The notes beneath the pieces were generated by a model. The model was not told where the DNA came from and ran no database searches. It saw only the letters and a list, made by a program, of their open reading frames with translations. From positions 1 through 24,601 of IMG/VR virus record IMGVR_UViG_3300046004_001686: DNA of 24,601 nucleotides. The stretch is one strand, 5' to 3'. The translations under genes were made by a program, and so were the position numbers. This DNA comes from a virus. Position 1 is the stretch's first letter, and each line of letters begins with the position of its first letter. Shown here one piece after another: positions 242-11,771 of the stretch.

Positions 242-2095
242 ATGCAGCTAGAATCAAAATTATTGTCGGAAATTACGACATTTATGAAGTACGCAAAATA
301 CGTTCCAGATAAGCAACGTAGAGAAACATGGACAGAGTTAGTCGATAGAAATAAGAACATGCATCTAGAAAAGTTCCCTCAGTTGAAAGAGGAAATTGAT
401 GCCGCATATAAATTTGTATATGATAAGAAAATTCTTCCATCCATGCGCTCCTTGCAGTTTGCGGGAAAGCCAGTTGATTTAAACAATACTCGTTTATATA
501 ATTGTTGCTTTCTTCCCGTAGACCACAGTGACGCATTCAGTGAAATCATGTTCCTATTATTGTCGGGAACTGGTGTGGGATATTCCGTGCAACGCCAGCA
601 CGTAGAAAAACTCCCAGAAATTAATAAGCCAACAAGAACTCGTCGTTACCTTGTTGCGGATAGCATCGAAGGATGGGCGGACGCCGTGAAGGTGTTGGTG
701 ACTGCATATATGAAGGGTAAGGCATATCCGTTGTTTGATTTCCGTGACATTCGTCCAAAGGGTGCAATGTTGATTACGGCGGGTGGAAAGGCGCCCGGCG
801 CTGAACCATTAAAGGATTGTTTGCATAATATTCAAAAGGTATTGGACCGTAAGAATAATGGTGAACAACTCACCACACTGGAAGTGCATGACATTCTATG
901 TTATATCGCGGATGCGGTATTGTCTGGTGGCATTCGCCGGTCAGCAATGATTGCGTTGTTTGACTTAGATGACGACGATATGCTGACCTGTAAGTTCGGC
1001 AACTGGTGGGAGAATGAAGCACAGCGTGGCCGAGCAAATAATTCTGCGGTGATTGTTCGCCACAAGATTGAAAAGGAAATCTTTCTTGACTTGTGGAAAA
1101 AGATTGAATTGAGTGGTTCTGGTGAGCCTGGATTCTTCTTTACGAACGATGCAAGTTGGGGGCTGAACCCATGCGCGGAAATTTCTCTACGTCCATTCCA
1201 ATTTTGTAATCTCTGCGAAATCAATGCATCGGATATTGTGGATCAAGCTGACTATAATGCTCGTGCAAAGGCAGCAGCATTTATTGGAACGCTTCAGGCA
1301 AGTTATACCAATTTCCATTATCTTCGTGATATTTGGAAGCGCACTACTGAACGCGAAGCGTTAATCGGTGTTGGTATGACGGGTATTGCATCTGGTGCAG
1401 TATTGAAGCTGGACATGAAGGAAGCTGCAAATATTGTAAAGGCAGAAAACGAACGAGTGGCTGGAATGATTGGTATTAATAAGGCTGCTCGGACAACGAC
1501 GGTCAAGCCAAGTGGTACTTCGTCACTGGTGTTAGGTTCCTCGTCGGGTATTCATGCATGGCACAATGAATATTATATTCGTCGTATCCGTGTGGGTAAG
1601 AACGAAAGCATTTATACGTATTTACTAATCAATCATCCAGAACTATTGGAAGATGAATACTTCAAGCCAAACCAACAGGCTGTTATCTCGGTTCCGCAGA
1701 AGGCTCCAGTAGGGGCAGTAACTCGACAGGAAACCGCACTAGACCTCCTTGCCCGTGTCAGTAAGGTGTGGAAGGAGTGGGTAAAGCCGGGTCATCGTAA
1801 GGGTGAAAATAAGAACAACGTGTCAGTCACCGTGACGATTAAACCAAATGAATGGGAAGAAGTCGGAGAATGGATGTGGACAAATAAGGAAAACTTTACC
1901 GCGTTGAGTGTTTTGCCTCATTCAGAGCATTCGTATATTCAAGCTCCTTTTGAAGACATTACACAAGAGCGCTACGAAGAGTTGGTGGGGCATCTTCACA
2001 ACATTGATTTAAGTCAAGTCGTTGAATTAGAAGATGTAACTGATTTATCGGGTGAAGTTGCGTGCGGCGGAGCTCTGGGGTGCGAAGTCGTATGA
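242..2095 (+). CDS. nrdJ: Adenosylcobalamin-dependent (class II) ribonucleoside-triphosphate reductase
   Basis: Reduces ribonucleotides to deoxyribonucleotides in the cytoplasm using a B12-derived radical, with thioredoxin as the usual reductant. From ATG 242 it is 617 residues, shorter than the roughly 740-residue Lactobacillus leichmannii enzyme. Visible features: an N-terminal NTRLYNCCFLP with the first disulfide cysteine (about residue 88-89), SGTGVGYSV (about 108-116), NPCAEISL with the radical Cys 301 and Glu 303, the partner Cys 312 eleven residues later, TTTVKPSGTSS further on, and a C-terminal CX5C pair (CGGALGC) that would relay electrons from thioredoxin. All key cysteines are present, so it should be active. 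Two thioredoxin genes follow within 3.5 kb, which fits. Its stop overlaps the next start (ATGA). The monomeric RTPR type is my best assignment; a NrdA-like class I enzyme is unlikely because no NrdB is seen here. Confidence 0.9.
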   Translation: MQLESKLLSEITTFMKYAKYVPDKQRRETWTELVDRNKNMHLEKFPQLKEEIDAAYKFVYDKKILPSMRSLQFAGKPVDLNNTRLYNCCFLPVDHSDAFSEIMFLLLSGTGVGYSVQRQHVEKLPEINKPTRTRRYLVADSIEGWADAVKVLVTAYMKGKAYPLFDFRDIRPKGAMLITAGGKAPGAEPLKDCLHNIQKVLDRKNNGEQLTTLEVHDILCYIADAVLSGGIRRSAMIALFDLDDDDMLTCKFGNWWENEAQRGRANNSAVIVRHKIEKEIFLDLWKKIELSGSGEPGFFFTNDASWGLNPCAEISLRPFQFCNLCEINASDIVDQADYNARAKAAAFIGTLQASYTNFHYLRDIWKRTTEREALIGVGMTGIASGAVLKLDMKEAANIVKAENERVAGMIGINKAARTTTVKPSGTSSLVLGSSSGIHAWHNEYYIRRIRVGKNESIYTYLLINHPELLEDEYFKPNQQAVISVPQKAPVGAVTRQETALDLLARVSKVWKEWVKPGHRKGENKNNVSVTVTIKPNEWEEVGEWMWTNKENFTALSVLPHSEHSYIQAPFEDITQERYEELVGHLHNIDLSQVVELEDVTDLSGEVACGGALGCEVV

Positions 2096-2805
2096 AGTTA
2101 AAAGATTTGGTCACCATTGTTATTCCTTGTAAAAACGAAGAAAAATATATCGGACACTTGTTGGAAGATTTATTTATCTCGGTGGAAATTGGAGGCGTAC
2201 GAATTATTATTGCCGATGCAAATTCTACAGACAACACCCGAAATATTATCAAAGATTGGTCATATGGATTGAACATTGAGATAATCCAAGGTGGTTCGGT
2301 TTCTGAAGGAAGAAACAATGGTGCCAAATTAGTTACTACTCCATATATTTTATTTCTTGACGCAGATGTGCAGTTATTTTCGACAAGTGCCATATATGAT
2401 GCTGTACAATGTATTCACCAAGAAAATTTAGATTTAGTTACACTGAGTCCAAAAAACTATGGAACTGAACGGAGGGCATCCATTCTATTCTATCTGTTTA
2501 GTCTATGTAATAAAGTTATGGCAAAGTTTACACCGTTTGCTATTGGTGCATTTTTCTTGACTCGTCGCAGTGTATTTGAAGTGTTCGGAGGATTTCCAAA
2601 TAAATATGATACCTCAGAAGATTATATTTTAAGTAAACGTTACGATGTAAAGAAATTTAAAATTGTAAATCATCATTTTGGCCAAGACGAACGCCGATTT
2701 AAACAGTTGGGTTATTTGGGGATGTTGTGGTATATGACAGTAAACTTCTTCAACCGAAATAACCTAGCACATTTTGAAAAAGCTAAGGTTGATTATTGGA
2801 GTTAA
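2092..2805 (+). CDS. Glycosyltransferase family 2 (GT-A fold)
   Basis: A 237-residue protein with the classic GT2 layout: VTIVIPCKNEEKYI at the N-terminus (nucleotide-sugar binding), an Asp at about 42 in IIADANSTD, and the metal-binding DxD as FLDADV (Asp 90 and 92). It should move a sugar from a nucleotide-sugar donor to an unknown acceptor. The C-terminal half has a hydrophobic stretch (SILFYLFSLCNKVM) that could sit on a membrane. The start at ATG 2092 overlaps the RNR stop, with GGGGTG as a weak ribosome site; in-frame codons upstream lie inside the RNR gene. It is followed at once by a small membrane protein and an LpxH-like phosphoesterase, which hints at an envelope or lipid-linked glycan role (inference). 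A virion or DNA glycosylation role cannot be excluded. Confidence 0.85.
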   Translation: MKLKDLVTIVIPCKNEEKYIGHLLEDLFISVEIGGVRIIIADANSTDNTRNIIKDWSYGLNIEIIQGGSVSEGRNNGAKLVTTPYILFLDADVQLFSTSAIYDAVQCIHQENLDLVTLSPKNYGTERRASILFYLFSLCNKVMAKFTPFAIGAFFLTRRSVFEVFGGFPNKYDTSEDYILSKRYDVKKFKIVNHHFGQDERRFKQLGYLGMLWYMTVNFFNRNNLAHFEKAKVDYWS

Positions 2806-2807
2806 TG

Positions 2808-3071
2808 ATGCAACTATTTTTTATTTTTCTGTTTCAAATAATTTTTAATGTATTAAAAGTCTGGGAAATAAAATATACGTATCAACATAAAATTTTTCCT
2901 TTATTAATCAATTCAATTTTCATAAATTTAACATCCTTAGCAACAACATTTATATCTGTTACTAGTTTACTTGATGGCAAATGGTCTGTAATTTTCTTTT
3001 ATGTAATAGGAAGCGTTATAGGAAAGTATATTGGAATGACAATACACACACATATAAATAAGGTAAACTAA
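2808..3071 (+). CDS. Small integral membrane protein, UPF0316/DUF5698-like topology
   Basis: About 87 residues with three hydrophobic segments: residues about 2-15, 31-50 and 58-76, the last ending GSVIGKYIGM. The order of segments and the glycine-rich third helix recall the membrane part of UPF0316/DUF5698 proteins, but this is only a resemblance. GGAG at 2798-2801 favours the second of two adjacent ATGs (2808, spacing 6) over 2805. The base composition is more AT-rich than the neighbours. It is coupled to the GT2 gene through the TAATG junction and is followed after two bases by the phosphoesterase. Function unknown. Confidence 0.7.
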   Translation: MQLFFIFLFQIIFNVLKVWEIKYTYQHKIFPLLINSIFINLTSLATTFISVTSLLDGKWSVIFFYVIGSVIGKYIGMTIHTHINKVN

Positions 3072-3073
3072 CT

Positions 3074-3802
3074 ATGACACGATATAAAGCCATCATTGTA
3101 TCCGATGTGCATTTAGGAACAGACAACAGTAAAGCAGCAGAATTTTTGGAATTTTTAAATACCCACCATACCGACATTCTAATTATTAATGGAGATTTTG
3201 TGGATGGGTGGGCGTTGTCCCGTGGCGTTCGGTGGCGGGCAAAACATACGAAGGTAATTTCCAAAGTGTTGGATATTTCTCGTAAAGTTCCTGTGGTATG
3301 GATTCGTGGCAACCATGACGAATTTTTACATGATTTTATGAACATGCATTTAGGCAAACTTCAAGTAGAAGAAAATTATATCTTGGATTTAGGTGAAGGA
3401 AAAAGATATTTTATTTTTCACGGAGATATCCTAGATGTATTTGTTTCTAAATGGAAATGGATTGCAAAAATAGGTGGACGAGGATATGACTTGGCATTAA
3501 AATTAAATACATGGTACAATAAGTGGAGAAAGTGGAGGAAGTTACCGTATTACTCCATCTCCAAAGATATTAAGAAGGGTGTGAAGGCGGCAGTAAACTA
3601 CATCACCGATTTTGAAGTAACGGCAACAAAACTTGCAAAGCAACATAATTGTGATGGTGTTATCTGTGGACATATTCACCAACCAGAAAATAGACAAATT
3701 GCTGGAATACATTATTTGAATTCCGGTGATTGGGTAGAGAGTTTAACCGCAATTGTAATAGACCATAATAATAATATAAGTATAAAGGAGTTTCACAAAT
3801 GA
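3074..3802 (+). CDS. Calcineurin-like metallophosphoesterase, LpxH-like
   Basis: 242 residues with the complete dimetal phosphoesterase motif set: SDVHLG (Asp 11, His 13), NGDFVDG (Asp 41), RGNHDEF (Asn 80, His 81, Asp 82), FHGD (His 116, Asp 118) and GHIH (His 200, His 202), followed by LNSGDWVES. The spacing and the ending resemble UDP-2,3-diacylglucosamine pyrophosphatase (LpxH), which makes lipid X in lipid A synthesis in Gram-negative bacteria. Whether the phage protein uses that substrate is not shown; YbbF-type and other phosphoesterases share these motifs. It follows a glycosyltransferase and a membrane protein in one run. Its TGA overlaps the ATG of a truncated thioredoxin. Confidence 0.85.
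   Translation: MTRYKAIIVSDVHLGTDNSKAAEFLEFLNTHHTDILIINGDFVDGWALSRGVRWRAKHTKVISKVLDISRKVPVVWIRGNHDEFLHDFMNMHLGKLQVEENYILDLGEGKRYFIFHGDILDVFVSKWKWIAKIGGRGYDLALKLNTWYNKWRKWRKLPYYSISKDIKKGVKAAVNYITDFEVTATKLAKQHNCDGVICGHIHQPENRQIAGIHYLNSGDWVESLTAIVIDHNNNISIKEFHK
3785..3790 (+). promoter_or_regulatory. Orphan strong ribosome binding site of the split thioredoxin
   Basis: AAGGAG sits 8 bases before ATG 3799. It is a near-ideal site, yet the frame behind it is only 17 codons long. This marks the original start of a thioredoxin gene that has been interrupted. Confidence 0.6.
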
Positions 3803-3852
3803 TTACCGTCACTAAATTCAGCGCACCTTGGTGTTGTACGGATAAAATCTAA
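3799..3852 (+). pseudogene. N-terminal remnant of a thioredoxin gene interrupted by the HNH insertion
   Basis: Seventeen codons (MITVTKFSAPWC then CTDKI and a stop). The first 12 residues match the start of the thioredoxin at 4635 (MIIVTKFSSKTC) at 8 of 12 positions, and both end on the first active-site cysteine. After that codon the homology stops and the HNH cassette begins. The remnant keeps a strong ribosome site and overlaps the phosphoesterase stop, as the ancestral gene would. Most conserved residues use different synonymous codons in the two copies. It is probably translated into a short useless peptide, unless the RNA is spliced, for which I see no intron core. Confidence 0.65.
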
Positions 3853-3871
3853 CAATTTTACACCACGGTGC
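3823..3871 (+). repeat. Inverted repeat at the thioredoxin/HNH junction
   Basis: GCACCTTGGTGT (3823-3834) pairs with ACACCACGGTGC (3860-3871) at 11 of 12 positions around a 25-base loop. The left arm is thioredoxin coding sequence ending exactly at the active-site cysteine codon; the right arm lies in the inserted DNA. There is no T-run after it, so it is not a typical terminator. Confidence 0.6.
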
Positions 3872-3927
3872 ATTGAAAATCCAAACTGCATGATACTTAT
3901 GTATATAACTTTGTTTGGAGAAATCAT

Positions 3928-4638
3928 ATGAAAAAAGCAGATGGGTTTGATTACGAAGAGTATAAAATATATATGAATTTTATAAATGAATGCAAAAATA
4001 AACAATATGATGAAACTTTAGTATTACATGCACATCATATAATACCAAAACATTTATGTGCAGATAATGACATTTTACATAGTAAAGAGAATATAGTAAA
4101 AATCTCAGTGGATGACCATGTAAAGGCACATTTATTAATTGCTAATTTATATCCAGAAGATACATACGAACATATTTCTAATTTAAGGTCGGCACGATTT
4201 CTTAATAAGAAATCTATAAAAGAAAAAGATGTATTGAAAAAAATAACAGATTCATATATCGGTGAAAAAAATCCATTTTATGGAAAAACACACACTGAAG
4301 AAACTCGTAAAAAATTAAGTACATCTAACATTGGAATTAGAAAAGGAAAAAATTACGAAGAAATATACGGAGTTGAAAAAGCAAATTTAGAAAAACAAAA
4401 ACGTGCTAAAAAAACTAGGACGGCCGAAGAATATAGGTTGTCGGGGAAAAAAGCTCTAGATACTAGGAAACGGCGTGGGTTGAGTAGTGAAGGAAAAAAT
4501 AATCCTTATGCACAGCCGTATCTGGTCAATGGAGTTTTATTTTATACTAGAAAAGAAGTAGAAACACATTTTGGTATGGCAATGGTTACCATAAAAAAAA
4601 GATTTAATGTAATTAAATTAAAGAGAGAAAATATATGA
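3928..4638 (+). CDS. HNH homing endonuclease with NUMOD3-type DNA-binding region
   Basis: 236 residues. The HNH nuclease core is at the N-terminus: HAHHIIPKHL (His 36/37), KENIV (Asn 55) and DDHVKAH (His 64/68). A NUMOD3-like segment (GEKNPFYGKTHTEETRKKL, about 112-130) follows, then a basic stretch and a C-terminal helix-turn-helix-like part (FYTRKEVETHFGMAMVTIKK, about 205-224) like the repeats of intron-encoded nucleases. Proteins of this kind cut a specific target and spread by repair copying. The gene is visibly more A-rich than its neighbours, which fits mobile origin. GGAG at 3917-3920 precedes ATG 3928 by 7 bases. The stop overlaps the ATG of the intact thioredoxin, so the cassette feeds straight into that gene. 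Confidence 0.9.
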   Translation: MKKADGFDYEEYKIYMNFINECKNKQYDETLVLHAHHIIPKHLCADNDILHSKENIVKISVDDHVKAHLLIANLYPEDTYEHISNLRSARFLNKKSIKEKDVLKKITDSYIGEKNPFYGKTHTEETRKKLSTSNIGIRKGKNYEEIYGVEKANLEKQKRAKKTRTAEEYRLSGKKALDTRKRRGLSSEGKNNPYAQPYLVNGVLFYTRKEVETHFGMAMVTIKKRFNVIKLKRENI

Positions 4639-4904
4639 TTATTGTTACAAAATTTAGTTCAAAAACTTGTGGCCCATGTCGGGCATTAGCTCCTGTATTT
4701 CGGGAGTTGGAGGATATGACCCTTGATGCAACATTTATCTCAGTCGATGTAGAAGAGAAACCGTCGATTGCACAGTTATATTCCATTAGAACAGTTCCAA
4801 CCGTTATCATTGAAAAGGATAATGTACTAATTGAAAAATTTGTAGGAGTACAAAGTAAACAAAAGTATATTTCTGCCATTAATGCTGCGAGAGATGGGGC
4901 GTAA
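4635..4904 (+). CDS. Thioredoxin (CGPC), rebuilt behind the HNH cassette
   Basis: 89 residues, slightly shorter than typical thioredoxin (about 105). Active site KTCGPCRAL with Cys 12 and Cys 15, the Asp-rich third strand (TFISVDVEEKP) and the cis-proline loop RTVPTVII (Pro 55) are all present. It probably reduces disulfides in the cytoplasm; the nearby class II RNR is the obvious partner. The ATG overlaps the HNH stop. Only a weak AGAGAGA precedes it, so translation is likely coupled to the HNH gene. The first 12 codons look like a recoded replacement for the segment stranded at 3799. The 3' end overlaps the next endonuclease frame by 23 bases. Confidence 0.9.
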   Translation: MIIVTKFSSKTCGPCRALAPVFRELEDMTLDATFISVDVEEKPSIAQLYSIRTVPTVIIEKDNVLIEKFVGVQSKQKYISAINAARDGA

Positions 4905-5268
4905 AAAGGAAACACAACAAAAATCTTCATTGAATGCAATAGAACAAAAAATGATGGGGTTATTGCATTCAATGAATCTTTCGTATGAATCTCAAGCAAC
5001 AATTGATAATTATAATGTTGACTTTTTGATTGACGAGAAGTATATTATAGAATGTTATGGGGATTACTGGCATTGTAATCCAGCCAGATATTCCGCGGAT
5101 TATTACAACCGTGGGAAGAAAAAAACTGCAGCAGAAATCTGGAAGCGTGATGAAAAAAGGAAACGTGAGCTGGAAAAATTAGGTTACAAAGTTTTATATT
5201 TCTGGGAACATGAAATTAATAATAATATAAAAGATATAAAAGCAACATTAAAACGATATATTACGTGA
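4882..5268 (+). CDS. Vsr-like (EDxHD-type) homing endonuclease
   Basis: 128 residues with the layout of Vsr/PD-(D/E)XK-related single-domain nucleases: VDFLIDEKYIIECYGDYWH (Asp 47, Glu 57, Asp 61, His 64), then WKRDEKRKREL (Asp 90), and a final KVLYFWEHEI. The E-D-H-D set matches the Vsr-related EDxHD homing endonucleases found in phages (I-Bth0305I is the known example). It would cut DNA as a free-standing mobile nuclease rather than repair mismatches; a repair role is possible but no Dcm-type methylase is seen. It starts inside the thioredoxin end. ATG 4894 is an alternative start; neither has a good ribosome site. Confidence 0.8.
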   Translation: MLREMGRKKETQQKSSLNAIEQKMMGLLHSMNLSYESQATIDNYNVDFLIDEKYIIECYGDYWHCNPARYSADYYNRGKKKTAAEIWKRDEKRKRELEKLGYKVLYFWEHEINNNIKDIKATLKRYIT

Positions 5269-5275
5269 GGACAAT

Positions 5276-5650
5276 ATGGTTACAGAAATTACGATGGACG
5301 AAATGATTGCGGGATTACCTGTCCCCGATAATGATTTACGGGTGGTAATGTTTTTTGGGACAACGTGCGGCCCATGTCAAGCTACTCGTCCACATTATGA
5401 AGCAACTGCACAGTTCTTCGTGGAAAAAACTACTCGTGCACAATTCTTTAGAATTAATGCATGGGAACCCGAAGAACAGAAAGTGTATTGTACAGAAACA
5501 TGGGGCATTCAAGGAGTTCCTCATTTTAAAGTATTTTGTCGAGGAGAACAAATTCTTGATAAGGTCGGCGGTGGAGACGAACCAACCATGATGAAATTTA
5601 TTCATGATGGAATAGATGAAGCATTTAAACGTTTTGGAGAACGAATCTAA
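5276..5650 (+). CDS. Second thioredoxin-like protein
   Basis: 124 residues with a thioredoxin fold pattern: VVMFFGTTCGPCQATRP (Cys 31 and Cys 34), a strand RAQFFRINAWEP, and the cis-proline motif GIQGVPHFKVF (Pro 82), then GGGDEPTMMKFI. It has an N-terminal extension of about 20 residues relative to the first thioredoxin. GAGG in the short gap before ATG 5276 is a plausible ribosome site. Its stop overlaps the dUTPase ATG (TAATG). With the RNR upstream and dUTPase downstream it fits nucleotide metabolism. The two thioredoxins are too different to be a recent duplication. Confidence 0.88.
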   Translation: MVTEITMDEMIAGLPVPDNDLRVVMFFGTTCGPCQATRPHYEATAQFFVEKTTRAQFFRINAWEPEEQKVYCTETWGIQGVPHFKVFCRGEQILDKVGGGDEPTMMKFIHDGIDEAFKRFGERI

Positions 5651-6124: not shown

Positions 6125-8650
6125 ATGGCGTATCAAAATATTTTTATAGATTCAACATCCGATGAACAAACCGCATATATCTGGGATGATGCACAGGGAC
6201 TTATCACCTTACCGTTGTCAGAATTTAATTATGCATATGTCCGTGACCCGAAAGGAAAGTATATCAGTATGACGGGAGAACGCCTCAGTAAAACGAGGCG
6301 TTTTGTTCGTAATAGCACAAATGTATTTGAAAGTGACCTTCCAAAAGAAACTCGCGTTCTTACAGATTTGTATTTGAATGAAGATATGCCGTCAGAAGGG
6401 AATATTATATTGTTTTTTGACATTGAGGTGTCAATGGAAAATGGTATTCCAGATACCCGTAAGCCAAATAATGAAATTACATCTATTGCATTTTGTGATG
6501 CGATTACAAATGAGTATAAAGTATTAGTATTGGATAAATCTGGTGCATATGAAAATGTAACAAAGAATGGAGCAATGGTTTATTTCTTTAAGGAAGAAGT
6601 TAATTTGTTACATGAATTCATTAATCAATACGAGCAAATTGGTCCAACCATCATTACTGGGTGGAACAGTAATGGTTTTGACGTTCCATATCTATACAAT
6701 CGTATCAAGCAAATTTGTGGAGCAAGTATTGCTAATCGGTTGAGTCCTATAGGGAAGGTAAGATATTCCGATAGATTGGAACGATATCGCATCGCTGGCG
6801 TAAGCTCGTTGGATTATCTGGACTTGTATAAGAAATACACCTATACTCAACAACCTAACTATCGTCTTGATACGATTGGCCGATTGGAAGTAGGAATGGG
6901 TAAAGTAGATTATGATGGGTCTTTGGACGATTTGTTTCGTGATGACCTAGAAAAGTTTATTGAGTATAATTTGCAAGACGTTCGCATCATTGTTGATTTG
7001 GACAAGAAGCTAAAGCTTATCGACTTGGTTCGTGGTATCTGTCATCTTGGTCACGTACCATATGAAGATTATCCAATGGCATCGCGTGTACTTGAAGGTA
7101 CAATTGTTACCTATCTGCATCGTAAAGGAATTATCGTTGCTGACAAACCAAAGGACAGTAAAGAAAAGATGGAAGCGCTTGACCGCGGTGAAGAAGGGTT
7201 CGTAGGTGCATACGTGCAAGAACCAGTTCCTGGGTTGTATGATTGGGTATACTCCCTTGACTTGCAATCTCTGTATCCCAGTATCATTATGAGTTTGAAT
7301 ATTTCGCCTGAGACAAAGGTTGCGAAGGTATTGAACTTTGATATGGAAAAACATTTGCGTAAAGAAATTGTTGCCTATGTAATTCAAGAAATTGGCGATG
7401 AGATGACAGTGGAACTAGAGCACGATGCCTTTGTTAATTTCTTAAAGGAAAATAATCTTACGATAGCATCAAACGGTGTATTATATAATACAGTAACGAA
7501 GGGTATTATCCCCGAAGTATTGGAAGAATGGTTTGCCAAACGTGTTGAGTATAAGAATCTTATGAAGAAGTATACGACGGAAGGTGATAAGGTGCAAGCA
7601 GCCTATTATGACCAACGGCAACATATTCAGAAGATTTTCTTGAACTCATTGTATGGTGTGTTAGGCTTGCCTGTATTTCGTTTCTATGACGTAGACAATG
7701 CTGCCGCAGTAACATTGACGGGGCAAGATGTAATTAAGACTACGGCAAAGTTTATCAATAAGAAGTATGAAAAGGCAACGGGTGAACAGAAAGACCATTG
7801 TGTATATGTTGATACCGACTCGGTATACTTTCCAGCAAAACCAATGTTTGTTGAAGGTAGTACTGATGACCTTGCTTCCACAATTAGTATTGCCTATGAC
7901 ATGGAAAGCACGTTGAATACATTCTATGATTCTATGGCAAAACGTATGTTCAATTGCGATAGTCATAAGTTCCATATTAAAGGAGAAAGTGTCGCAAAGA
8001 CGGGATTCTGGGTAGCTAAGAAACGATATGCACTGGATAAGGTGTATGACTTGGAAACTCGACAGAACGCAAGTAAATTGGTGGTGAAGGGATTGGACGT
8101 TGTACGGTCGTCGTTTCCTAAAGCATTTCGGGAGTTCATGACACAAATGTTGAAGGATATTTTGGGTAGAGTAGATAAGCAAGAATTAGATGATAAGATT
8201 CTTGCGCTCAAAACATCTATCAAGACTCGTCATTATTTGGAAGTCGCACGAAATACGTCGGCAAATAATATCAGTCAATATTCTGCTGGTGAGGAAGGGA
8301 ACGGGATGAATAAGTTTAAAAAGGGAACTCCCGCTCACATCAAGGCAGCAATCGTATACAATAGATTATTAAAGCATTATAATATTCAAACAAAGTTTGA
8401 ACCAATCACCGATGGCGCGAAGATTAAGTATGTATATCTTAAGGATAATCCACTACAGATTGAAGCCTTGGCAATTAAAGGGTATCAAGACCCACCACAA
8501 ATTGTTGATATGATTACCGAGTATATGGATACAGATGCATTGTTTGAAAATGAATTACGTAATAAATTAGATGACTTTTATACGGCATTAAAATGGGGTA
8601 ATATCCCCACGGAAGTAAATCAAAATGCAGGGGAATTTTTCTCCTTTTAA
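6125..8650 (+). CDS. Family B DNA polymerase with 3'-5' exonuclease (T4 gp43-like)
   Basis: 841 residues, slightly shorter than T4 gp43 (898). Exonuclease motifs: FFDIEVS (Asp 99, Glu 101), GWNSNGFDVPYL (Asp 186) and EYNLQDVRI (Asp 285). Polymerase motifs: A as SLDLQSLYPSII (Asp 379), B as KIFLNSLYG (503-511), C as YVDTDSVYF (Asp 563, Asp 565), then GFWVAKKRYAL and a thumb region. All catalytic carboxylates are present, so both synthesis and proofreading should work. The C-terminus (AGEFFSF) ends in a short hydrophobic tail, as expected for a clamp-binding peptide. It has its own promoter and starts a new transcription unit after dUTPase; the clamp and loader genes lie 3.5-11 kb downstream. 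Confidence 0.97.
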   Translation: MAYQNIFIDSTSDEQTAYIWDDAQGLITLPLSEFNYAYVRDPKGKYISMTGERLSKTRRFVRNSTNVFESDLPKETRVLTDLYLNEDMPSEGNIILFFDIEVSMENGIPDTRKPNNEITSIAFCDAITNEYKVLVLDKSGAYENVTKNGAMVYFFKEEVNLLHEFINQYEQIGPTIITGWNSNGFDVPYLYNRIKQICGASIANRLSPIGKVRYSDRLERYRIAGVSSLDYLDLYKKYTYTQQPNYRLDTIGRLEVGMGKVDYDGSLDDLFRDDLEKFIEYNLQDVRIIVDLDKKLKLIDLVRGICHLGHVPYEDYPMASRVLEGTIVTYLHRKGIIVADKPKDSKEKMEALDRGEEGFVGAYVQEPVPGLYDWVYSLDLQSLYPSIIMSLNISPETKVAKVLNFDMEKHLRKEIVAYVIQEIGDEMTVELEHDAFVNFLKENNLTIASNGVLYNTVTKGIIPEVLEEWFAKRVEYKNLMKKYTTEGDKVQAAYYDQRQHIQKIFLNSLYGVLGLPVFRFYDVDNAAAVTLTGQDVIKTTAKFINKKYEKATGEQKDHCVYVDTDSVYFPAKPMFVEGSTDDLASTISIAYDMESTLNTFYDSMAKRMFNCDSHKFHIKGESVAKTGFWVAKKRYALDKVYDLETRQNASKLVVKGLDVVRSSFPKAFREFMTQMLKDILGRVDKQELDDKILALKTSIKTRHYLEVARNTSANNISQYSAGEEGNGMNKFKKGTPAHIKAAIVYNRLLKHYNIQTKFEPITDGAKIKYVYLKDNPLQIEALAIKGYQDPPQIVDMITEYMDTDALFENELRNKLDDFYTALKWGNIPTEVNQNAGEFFSF

Positions 8651-8652
8651 TA

Positions 8653-8662
8653 GGTAATTACC
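8653..8662. promoter_or_regulatory. Perfect 10-base palindrome beside a promoter
   Basis: GGTAATTACC lies two bases after the polymerase stop and just before the -35 box at 8666. A second dyad, CCCC-N9-GGGG (8662-8678), spans the -35 box. Their position suits an operator, but no matching site is seen at the other two promoters. Confidence 0.35.
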
Positions 8663-10086: not shown

Positions 10087-10301
10087 TGTCCACTTACAAA
10101 TATATACACGCTGATAACACACACGCACCTGAGATAGGCCATGGTTTTATATACGGAATGAATGGCGCTGAACTATGGTGTGGTAAGTGTGGGCAGATAC
10201 TTGAAGTCCATTACAGCATAGAACCAGACTATATAACAGAGAGTAAAGAAGTGATAATTTCAGAACGGTGGATACCTCGGCCAGTTATTCTAGACAAATA
10301 A
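10086..10301 (+). CDS. Small hypothetical protein with a CxxC knuckle
   Basis: 71 residues, coupled to the ligase stop (TAATG), with GGAG 7 bases upstream (10075-10078). The only motif is LWCGKCGQI at about 31-39, half of a zinc ribbon; a second cysteine pair is missing. The rest is rich in Tyr, Ile and His. Not recognised. Confidence 0.6.
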   Translation: MSTYKYIHADNTHAPEIGHGFIYGMNGAELWCGKCGQILEVHYSIEPDYITESKEVIISERWIPRPVILDK

Positions 10302-10307
10302 TGTTTT

Positions 10308-10431
10308 GGCATCACAGTCGGGCGGGACGACGGTAGGAGTGGATATACGGGCGCTACCCGAATGTTACAACCACACTATGCTAGCCAAGGACTTAGAGAA
10401 ATCTATGTGGGGTTCGACTCCCCTGATGCCA
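10308..10431 (+). ncRNA. tRNA-like element of non-standard length (124 nt)
   Basis: GGCATCA (10308-10314) pairs perfectly with TGATGCC (10424-10430), followed by an A as discriminator. Just inside the 3' arm is a textbook T-arm: GGGG, TTCGACT loop, CCCC (10409-10423). Before it is a short hairpin with a GAAA loop (TAGA/TCTA, 10394-10405) in the variable-arm position. Near the 5' end GTCG/CGAC (10317-10331) could be a D-arm. I cannot find a normal anticodon arm: the middle about 60 bases are extra, with another stem GGTAG/CTACC (10332-10358). No CCA is encoded. It could be a tRNA with an insertion, a decayed tRNA, or a tRNA-like structural RNA; a tmRNA would be far longer. Confidence 0.45.
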
Positions 10432-10441
10432 CTTTCAAACT

Positions 10442-10446
10442 GGGAG
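10442..10446 (+). promoter_or_regulatory. Ribosome binding site that fixes the Mom-like start
   Basis: GGGAG lies 5 bases before ATG 10452. The frame is open further up to ATG 10362, but that stretch is the tRNA-like element and has no ribosome site, so ATG 10452 is chosen. Confidence 0.6.
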
Positions 10447-10451
10447 TTGTA

Positions 10452-11252
10452 ATGCTTATAGTAAAAGAAGTTTCTAAGAAAACCGCAATTGATTTTATTC
10501 ACACGTATCATTATAGTAAAATTTTACCGAGACTAACCAAATTTTATTTGGGATACTTTGAAGAAAATGTATTAGTAGGAGTAGTTACACTTGGTTGGGG
10601 AACACAGCCACTACAGACCATTAAAAAAATATTTTACAACCATGATATGGTAACTACTGATTATTATGAGATTGGTAAAATGTGCTTTTTGCCTGAAAAG
10701 AATGGTGGTAATTTTGGTTCTCTTGCCATGAAACTATTGATTGATTGGGCAAAGCAAAATACAAAAACTAAGTTTATTTATACAATGGCTGATGGTATTA
10801 TGGGGAAGTGTGGATTCGTATATCAAGCATCAAACTTTCGTTATTTGGGAAGTTTTAAAACCGATGTGTATATGGATAAACTCACGGGAGAAAAAATGCA
10901 CCCTAGAAGTGCTAAGCAGCTACATATAGAAAATGCAAAATTCTTGAATAAAGATAAAGTATTTTGGTTAACGCAAGATTTTTGTGAATTGAAAGGAATT
11001 GATAGAATTAGAGGATTGATGTTTCGGTATATATACCCGCTGAATAAGCAGGCTCGTAAAATAATAGAGACATATCCAGAATATGCAAATTTAAAGAATC
11101 CAAAAGAAACAAATTTGTTATTTGAAAGAAGAATTGCAGCTGGTAAATATGAAACTATTAATAAACCAAATTTCAACATGAATGTATTTACGCATAACTA
11201 TCAAAAATATACAGCCAGTGATTTTGCAAAAGAGTTCTTCGATATTACTTAG
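10452..11252 (+). CDS. Mom-like GNAT-fold protein (candidate DNA-modifying acyltransferase)
   Basis: 266 residues. An N-terminal HTYHYSK motif (18-23), a central strand LVGVVTLGW, then YYEIGKMCFLPEKNGGNFGS with the following helix, and TMADGIMGKCGFVYQASNFR (111-130) reproduce the order seen in phage Mu Mom and relatives: a His-Tyr-Lys-like N-terminal motif, a GNAT acyl-CoA-type core and a Y-x-A-x-N-F/W signature. Mom converts adenine to a carbamoylmethyl-type derivative and protects phage DNA from restriction. The C-terminal 100 residues are extra and may bind substrate. DNA as the substrate is an inference. A second, more Mom-like protein lies at 18512. The amidase gene follows after 9 bases. 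Confidence 0.65.
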   Translation: MLIVKEVSKKTAIDFIHTYHYSKILPRLTKFYLGYFEENVLVGVVTLGWGTQPLQTIKKIFYNHDMVTTDYYEIGKMCFLPEKNGGNFGSLAMKLLIDWAKQNTKTKFIYTMADGIMGKCGFVYQASNFRYLGSFKTDVYMDKLTGEKMHPRSAKQLHIENAKFLNKDKVFWLTQDFCELKGIDRIRGLMFRYIYPLNKQARKIIETYPEYANLKNPKETNLLFERRIAAGKYETINKPNFNMNVFTHNYQKYTASDFAKEFFDIT

Positions 11253-11261
11253 GAAAAATAT

Positions 11262-11771
11262 ATGCTAAAAATGTTATTGATGGCACAATTGATAGTTCCA
11301 ACATTATTAAACAAACCATTAGCGTCAAAGAAAACCGCAAGAAGTATCACGGCTAATTATATTGTATTACATTATGATGACGGTGGTTCATATAAATCGA
11401 CACGGCGAACATTAATTAAAAAAAGAAATAGTTATCATTATTATATTCAACGTGACGGTACTATTATTAAATTAATAGACCCCAAATATGAAGCCTCCCA
11501 CGCGGGCATTTCGTATTATAAAGGAATGGTTCGATTAAATAAATATAGTATTGGTATTTGTTTACAAAATGACCCACCAGAAGCATATACAGAAAAACAA
11601 TATAATAGTGTGGCGTGGCTGATTAATGAGTTACAATTAAGATATAAAGATTCTACATCAAAAGTGATTGTAGGACATTCTGATATTGCACTCCCTAGAG
11701 GAAGAAAACTGGACCCTGGTAAACATTTTAGTTGGATAACTTTATATGCACATATTAATAGATGGAGGTGA
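11262..11771 (+). CDS. N-acetylmuramoyl-L-alanine amidase (Amidase_2), candidate endolysin
   Basis: 169 residues of the T7 lysozyme/PGRP type. Zinc ligands: IVLHYDD (first His), VGHSDIALPRGRKLDPG (second His, with the Asp that replaces Cys in many relatives). Other signs are YHYYIQRDGTI, SHAGISY and SIGICLQND. It cleaves the amide bond between muramic acid and the peptide in peptidoglycan. The first about 22 residues are hydrophobic (MLKMLLMAQLIVPTLL), so it may be exported or act as a signal-arrest endolysin. AGGAAA precedes ATG 11262. No holin is recognisable next to it, although the 33-residue membrane peptide at 8855 is in the window. Confidence 0.88.
   Translation: MLKMLLMAQLIVPTLLNKPLASKKTARSITANYIVLHYDDGGSYKSTRRTLIKKRNSYHYYIQRDGTIIKLIDPKYEASHAGISYYKGMVRLNKYSIGICLQNDPPEAYTEKQYNSVAWLINELQLRYKDSTSKVIVGHSDIALPRGRKLDPGKHFSWITLYAHINRWR

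Follow-up and report, generated by a model that had tools for sequence, protein, structure and literature searches.

A predicted HNH homing endonuclease gene between a truncated thioredoxin start and a complete thioredoxin gene of a different allele in a viral contig

Genes and features at the thioredoxin locus

The window, by which we mean the whole stretch of viral DNA that was analysed (24,601 nucleotides), carries on its + strand, in this order, a phosphoesterase gene, a truncated thioredoxin start (the stump), an HNH gene, a complete thioredoxin gene, a DUF559-type endonuclease gene, a second thioredoxin gene and a dUTPase-like gene, the last labelled by reading of the sequence. The features from the phosphoesterase gene to the complete thioredoxin gene are as follows.

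3074 to 3802, + strand: metallophosphoesterase gene (Pfam Metallophos, 9.4e-17); its TGA stop overlaps the ATGA of the stump
3799 to 3852, + strand: stump ORF, 12 native thioredoxin codons (3799-3834, MITVTKFSAPWC), 5 unrelated codons and a stop
3817 to 3834, + strand: left arm of hairpin 1, stump codons 7-12 (z -5.0 for 3812-3882)
3860 to 3877, + strand: right arm of hairpin 1; taken as its reverse complement, it encodes F-N-A-P-W-C and is identical to the stump at 15/18 positions and to L040 at 16/18
3880 to 3920, + strand: hairpin 2 (z -2.6); most of the HNH ribosome site, GGAG (3917-3920), falls within its right arm (3913-3919)
3928 to 4638, + strand: predicted HNH homing endonuclease gene, 236 aa (Pfam NUMOD3, 3.2e-10; phrog_655 homing endonuclease, 3.2e-12), aligned with its T6 homologue
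4635 to 4904, + strand: complete thioredoxin gene of the SSKTCGPC type (Pfam Thioredoxin, 3.4e-16); its start overlaps the HNH stop
4658 to 4667, + strand: altered block, TTCAAAAACT in place of CGCACCTTGG, 8/10 nt changed, residues A-P-W to S-K-T; the same block occurs in L001

A preliminary description of this DNA had reported a stump, an HNH gene and a full thioredoxin, and each was found with the coordinates and residues it had given; the observation of a split thioredoxin start, an HNH gene and a complete thioredoxin is confirmed as real. The stump at 3799 does have the strong ribosome site claimed for it (AAAGGAG, 3784-3790) and encodes MITVTKFSAPWC-CTDKI*, while the product of the complete gene begins MIIVTKFSSKTCGPC... 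and is 97% identical in amino acids to that of the related locus L001 and 93% to that of L002. The overlap described at the start of the complete gene is formed by its ATGA, from 4635, and the TGA of the HNH ORF, which ends at 4638; because of this overlap, translation of the thioredoxin may be coupled to that of the HNH gene. The corresponding overlap between the phosphoesterase stop and the thioredoxin start is also present in relatives with an empty site.

The HNH motif is intact (HHIIPKH...N...H...H), NUMOD3 lies at residues 104-131, and the catalytic residues align with those of the T6 homologue. The closest annotated phage matches are HNH genes of T-even phages, at about 29% identity over 89%. 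With an HNH motif, a NUMOD DNA-binding segment and an empty allele in four relatives (L001, L002, L005 and L006), the gene has the marks of a free-standing phage HNH homing endonuclease, and it is best read as a T-even-type homing endonuclease gene with predicted activity. Its T6 homologue lies between uvsW and a small uvsW-related gene: it and the uvsW stop codon overlap, and the small gene, annotated as UvsW helicase, comes next; by eye, no duplicated host-gene end was seen at that junction. Searches of IMG/VR and of bacterial genomes returned no close relative of the HNH protein, a DNA search of phage records gave no match, pattern searches with the window's junction and leader sequences found them nowhere else, and the HNH matches elsewhere in the relatives' contigs were of NUMOD length only. 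The searches therefore yielded no donor, the window being the only copy found and its junction sequences being absent elsewhere.

The leader between the stump and the HNH gene contains two hairpins. In hairpin 1 the last six thioredoxin codons of the stump are paired with a somewhat diverged copy of themselves in inverted orientation, and the similarity of its arms was reached in 1 of 2000 shuffles in each of the two comparisons made (with the stump and with L040). This hairpin could be the scar of fold-back repair at the break, as suggested by a pattern found post hoc. Hairpin 2 was equalled in 3 of 200 shuffles. Hairpins over the ribosome site have been described for T-even-type homing genes, namely I-TevI, segB and Aeh1 mobE (PMC2988022), and hairpin 2, lying over the HNH ribosome site, resembles them. 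A T4-type late promoter was considered and dropped, its motif being no commoner in the window than expected by chance.

Empty sites and two thioredoxin alleles

A query with the phosphoesterase yielded 33 related viral loci. Four of these (L001, L002, L005 and L006) have an empty site: a single intact thioredoxin follows the phosphoesterase, its ATG overlapping the phosphoesterase stop. Compared with L001, L002 and L006, the window loses homology within the stump or where the stump ends, and regains it at the second ATG, at 4635; the window has therefore made a net gain of 836 bp. The expectation that relatives without the HNH gene would join the phosphoesterase to an uninterrupted thioredoxin was thus borne out, with the active-site TGT/TGC followed in the intact relatives by GGCCC (L001, L002) or a close variant, GGGCC (L006), GGTCC (L040, L041) or TCCCC (L005). 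In some 115,000 start-to-start comparisons over the window and the loci then collected, no other truncated start duplication reached at least 8/12; the remaining matches at that level were full tandem paralogues in which the similarity runs on. This unique result, together with four empty-site contigs that run from the same ATG into an intact thioredoxin, excludes chance. As had been proposed, the insertion interrupts a genuine thioredoxin start, and does so after its first active-site Cys. The break falls in the most conserved stretch of the thioredoxin gene, and homing sites usually lie in the most conserved stretch of their host gene.

The two thioredoxin starts of the window are not copies of one another. 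The stump matches the starts of L041 and L002, both SAPWC alleles, at 33/36 and 32/36 nucleotides, as befits the native remnant of an element of the fungal mitochondrial mobile-ORF type; the second copy matches these at 23-24/36 but L001 at 33/36. The two starts share 8 of 12 residues, as first reported, and the accompanying statement that these use mostly different synonymous codons is true by a bare margin, since 4 of the 7 shared residues other than Met differ (GTC/GTT, ACT/ACA, TTC/TTT, AGC/AGT). The further idea of a synonymous recoding beyond normal divergence finds no support in the form proposed: over nucleotides 1-23 the stump and the second copy match at 18 positions and the first copy and its nearer relatives at 17-21, so that codons 1-8 differ no more than they do among relatives. 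What sets the copies apart is a non-synonymous block of 10 nucleotides before the break (nucleotides 24-33), in which 8 are changed and SAPW becomes SSKT. Because A-P-W became S-K-T, the copies match at only 5/13 of nucleotides 24-36, and over the same stretch the second copy matches 4-6/13 in all relatives except L001 (13/13), the replacement end being more divergent from the relatives than the native end. Taken together, we regard these comparisons as having shown that the stump is the native SAPWC allele and the second copy a different one. The Trp before the Cys is kept in all other close relatives whose thioredoxin starts were read. Distant phage thioredoxins (L126-L128) have a Thr form, STKTCGPC, and for that reason the SSKTCGPC thioredoxin is probably functional.

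The one other carrier found of the altered block, L001, has no HNH gene at this place, and the first 23 nucleotides of its thioredoxin are those of L002. Since L001 has the SSKT start without the HNH gene, that start either predates the insertion or outlived loss of the HNH gene; thus either the altered allele descends from L001, or L001 is a lineage that recombination between the repeated starts has rid of the HNH gene. This bears on the earlier claim that the cassette carries the 5' end of its host gene. A complete thioredoxin with a different start does stand behind the HNH gene, and to that extent the claim holds; the two may move together, but a single copy of the HNH gene was found and L001 has the end without the gene.

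Possible origins of the arrangement

How did a native stump and a complete gene of another allele come to flank a homing gene? The reading that we modestly favour is that the HNH gene entered the thioredoxin gene joined to a foreign start of the SSKT type, by one-sided homologous repair, and that the altered bases should make a poor target. The donor would have been a free-standing HNH gene physically joined to the start of a foreign thioredoxin allele; no special cassette design would be needed, merely an HNH gene directly before an SSKT thioredoxin. The nuclease most likely cut or nicked the native gene in the conserved stretch coding for WCGPC. On the downstream side, homologous recombination within the thioredoxin would have imported the HNH gene and the donor's gene start, while the upstream side, where there was no homology, would have been sealed by illegitimate end-to-end joining past codon 12, with the native stump left behind. 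The two junctions do differ: the downstream one is seamless within the thioredoxin and the upstream one ends abruptly after codon 12, and it is on this account that we infer one-sided homologous repair with the other side end-joined. The outcome would be a complete thioredoxin that now receives its start along with the nuclease gene. The altered bases adjoin the presumed cut site and should make the new gene a poor target; immunity of the SSKT copy to cutting is plausible, and fits the position of the block.

A more far-reaching version, which we put forward tentatively as possible, is that of a rescue-type homing element: the HNH gene would travel with an amino-acid-altered, cut-resistant start, each homing event would disable the old start and install an immune, working gene, and L001 would be a lineage without the nuclease that kept the immune allele.

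The main rival to an insertion driven by the HNH gene is ordinary illegitimate module swapping, in which the thioredoxin start is a frequent breakpoint and an HNH-thioredoxin unit replaced the native gene with no driving part for the nuclease. Among the relatives, thioredoxin stumps followed by unrelated genes occur in L004 and L024 (MITVI*) and in L027 (MITVTRFT...*), with a similar but weaker case in L028, so that stumps of 4 codons (L004, L024) and 8 codons (L027) exist without a homing gene. The gene that precedes the thioredoxin also varies (RNR, phosphoesterase, PhoH-like and others) and often overlaps it at the start codon; by reading, no homing gene was found upstream of the thioredoxin in the relatives, these positions being taken by PhoH-like, sulfotransferase-like and other genes. 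Because relatives without a homing gene have stumps after the phosphoesterase, a stump alone is no proof of HNH-driven insertion. Against module swapping, however, what was inserted is a homing endonuclease gene whose HNH motif is intact, and the thioredoxin is interrupted in its most conserved coding stretch and not at the start codon. On balance we consider this explanation rather unlikely.

Less probable again, and in our judgement improbable, is an order of events in which the SSKT allele was already present, as it is in L001, and the HNH gene together with the SAPWC stump was acquired afterwards from another phage, through recombination in the phosphoesterase. The window and L001 are close overall and have the SSKT block in common, but this route requires a donor in which the stump was already joined to the HNH gene, and also that the downstream junction fell cleanly on the thioredoxin start codon; no such donor was found. 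A chimeric assembly of two strains is very improbable: there is but a single contig, yet the two flanks belong to one phage type (close to the insertion, about 91-98% to L001), and the abrupt upstream junction has no evident shared word of the kind that an assembler would have needed there. That a self-splicing intron or a split intein joins the stump to the downstream thioredoxin is hardly credible. Hairpin 1, which pairs the stump end with the leader, superficially resembles an intron P1 pairing, but as a group I P1 it was rejected, since the last exon U would pair with A and not G and there is no core; the Rfam covariance models, at E up to 5, found no group I or II intron core, only chance microRNA matches. 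A split intein was rejected likewise, the stump stopping after 5 extra codons, which is too short for an intein half, and the downstream thioredoxin being complete, with its own start and no intein part. Splicing as an intron had been named in the preliminary description as something that would speak against its reading, and no recognisable intron or intein was found in the sequence.

Known systems and further rearrangements

As a rule, free-standing homing genes of phages occupy intergenic positions or split a gene of which the parts continue to be used. The arrival of a nuclease together with a replacement gene start would be a third route to harmlessness, so far known from mitochondria, and would be an instance of homing that changes the sequence next to a redox enzyme's active site. 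As presumed cuttable and altered alleles coexist in one phage group, a direct test of immunity is on offer.

The fungal parallel drawn at the outset, of mitochondrial elements carrying a duplicate host-gene end, is a sound one: mobile ORFs in Allomyces atp6 and in Glomus atp6, atp9, cox2 and nad3 carry a foreign host-gene end (PMC3630166). In these, as here, an endonuclease gene sits within a host gene, a foreign replacement terminus gives a working protein and the native terminus is a remnant, although there the replacement concerns the 3' end and, in Glomus, the endonucleases belong to the LAGLIDADG or GIY-YIG type, whereas here it is the 5' end, the enzyme is of the HNH type and the setting is a phage. 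Mitochondria of Tremella fuciformis have introns with an N-terminal duplication, and element-free alleles there kept the exchanged part (PMC7315562); a duplicated 5' host-gene part, and an exchanged part without the element, as in L001, are common to both cases, unlike the introns and the mitochondrial setting, as no intron was detected in the window. Among phages, T4 mobA is associated with the gene 39/60 split and its 50-nt bypass, the gene 60 insert being thought to have protected from cutting (PMC5009743, PMC2988022). There, too, a phage HNH gene splits an enzyme gene and an associated sequence change is proposed to be protective, but in T4 the host protein is made as two parts and ribosomes bypass the protective sequence, whereas the window has one complete replacement gene. 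Aeh1 mobE in nrdA is likewise an HNH gene in a functionally critical region of a nucleotide-reduction gene with a hairpin over its ribosome site, although the split coding regions stay in use there and no duplicate start is described (PMC2988022). The layout is thus already known from fungal mitochondria; our literature search, which covered part of the literature, found no phage paper on a replacement gene start, in line with the earlier statement that no such phage case was known to have been described.

Several other rearrangements were observed in the window and its relatives. Between the two thioredoxin genes of the window stands the DUF559/Vsr-like endonuclease gene (4894-5268), and the second thioredoxin (5276-5650) is 68-76% identical to all four relatives compared, in surroundings mostly at 84-97%. 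Just after the phosphoesterase, six loci (L003, L004, L008, L024, L027 and L028) have a rearrangement hot spot in which unrelated genes replace the thioredoxin, some keeping thioredoxin stumps of 4 to 8 codons. The RNR gene of L001 (2791-4102) and L006 (3051-4365) is interrupted inside its NPC-AEI motif (window insertion point 1172/1173); from reading the translations, the interruption looks like a pair of intein halves that enclose a free-standing endonuclease-like ORF, as in a fractured gene with a split intein, and the window does not have it. L001 also has a 239-aa endonuclease-like gene directly after its DNA polymerase (10300-11530; window 8235-8662), and in its last part the polymerase gene drops abruptly to 63-76%, from mostly about 90% up to that point; this may be a further case of a homing gene moving together with a foreign gene end. 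Finally, L055 and L056, contigs classed as phage, have an ORF (326-3004) read as a putative TonB-dependent receptor, unusual for a phage, whose end coincides with the thioredoxin start codon.
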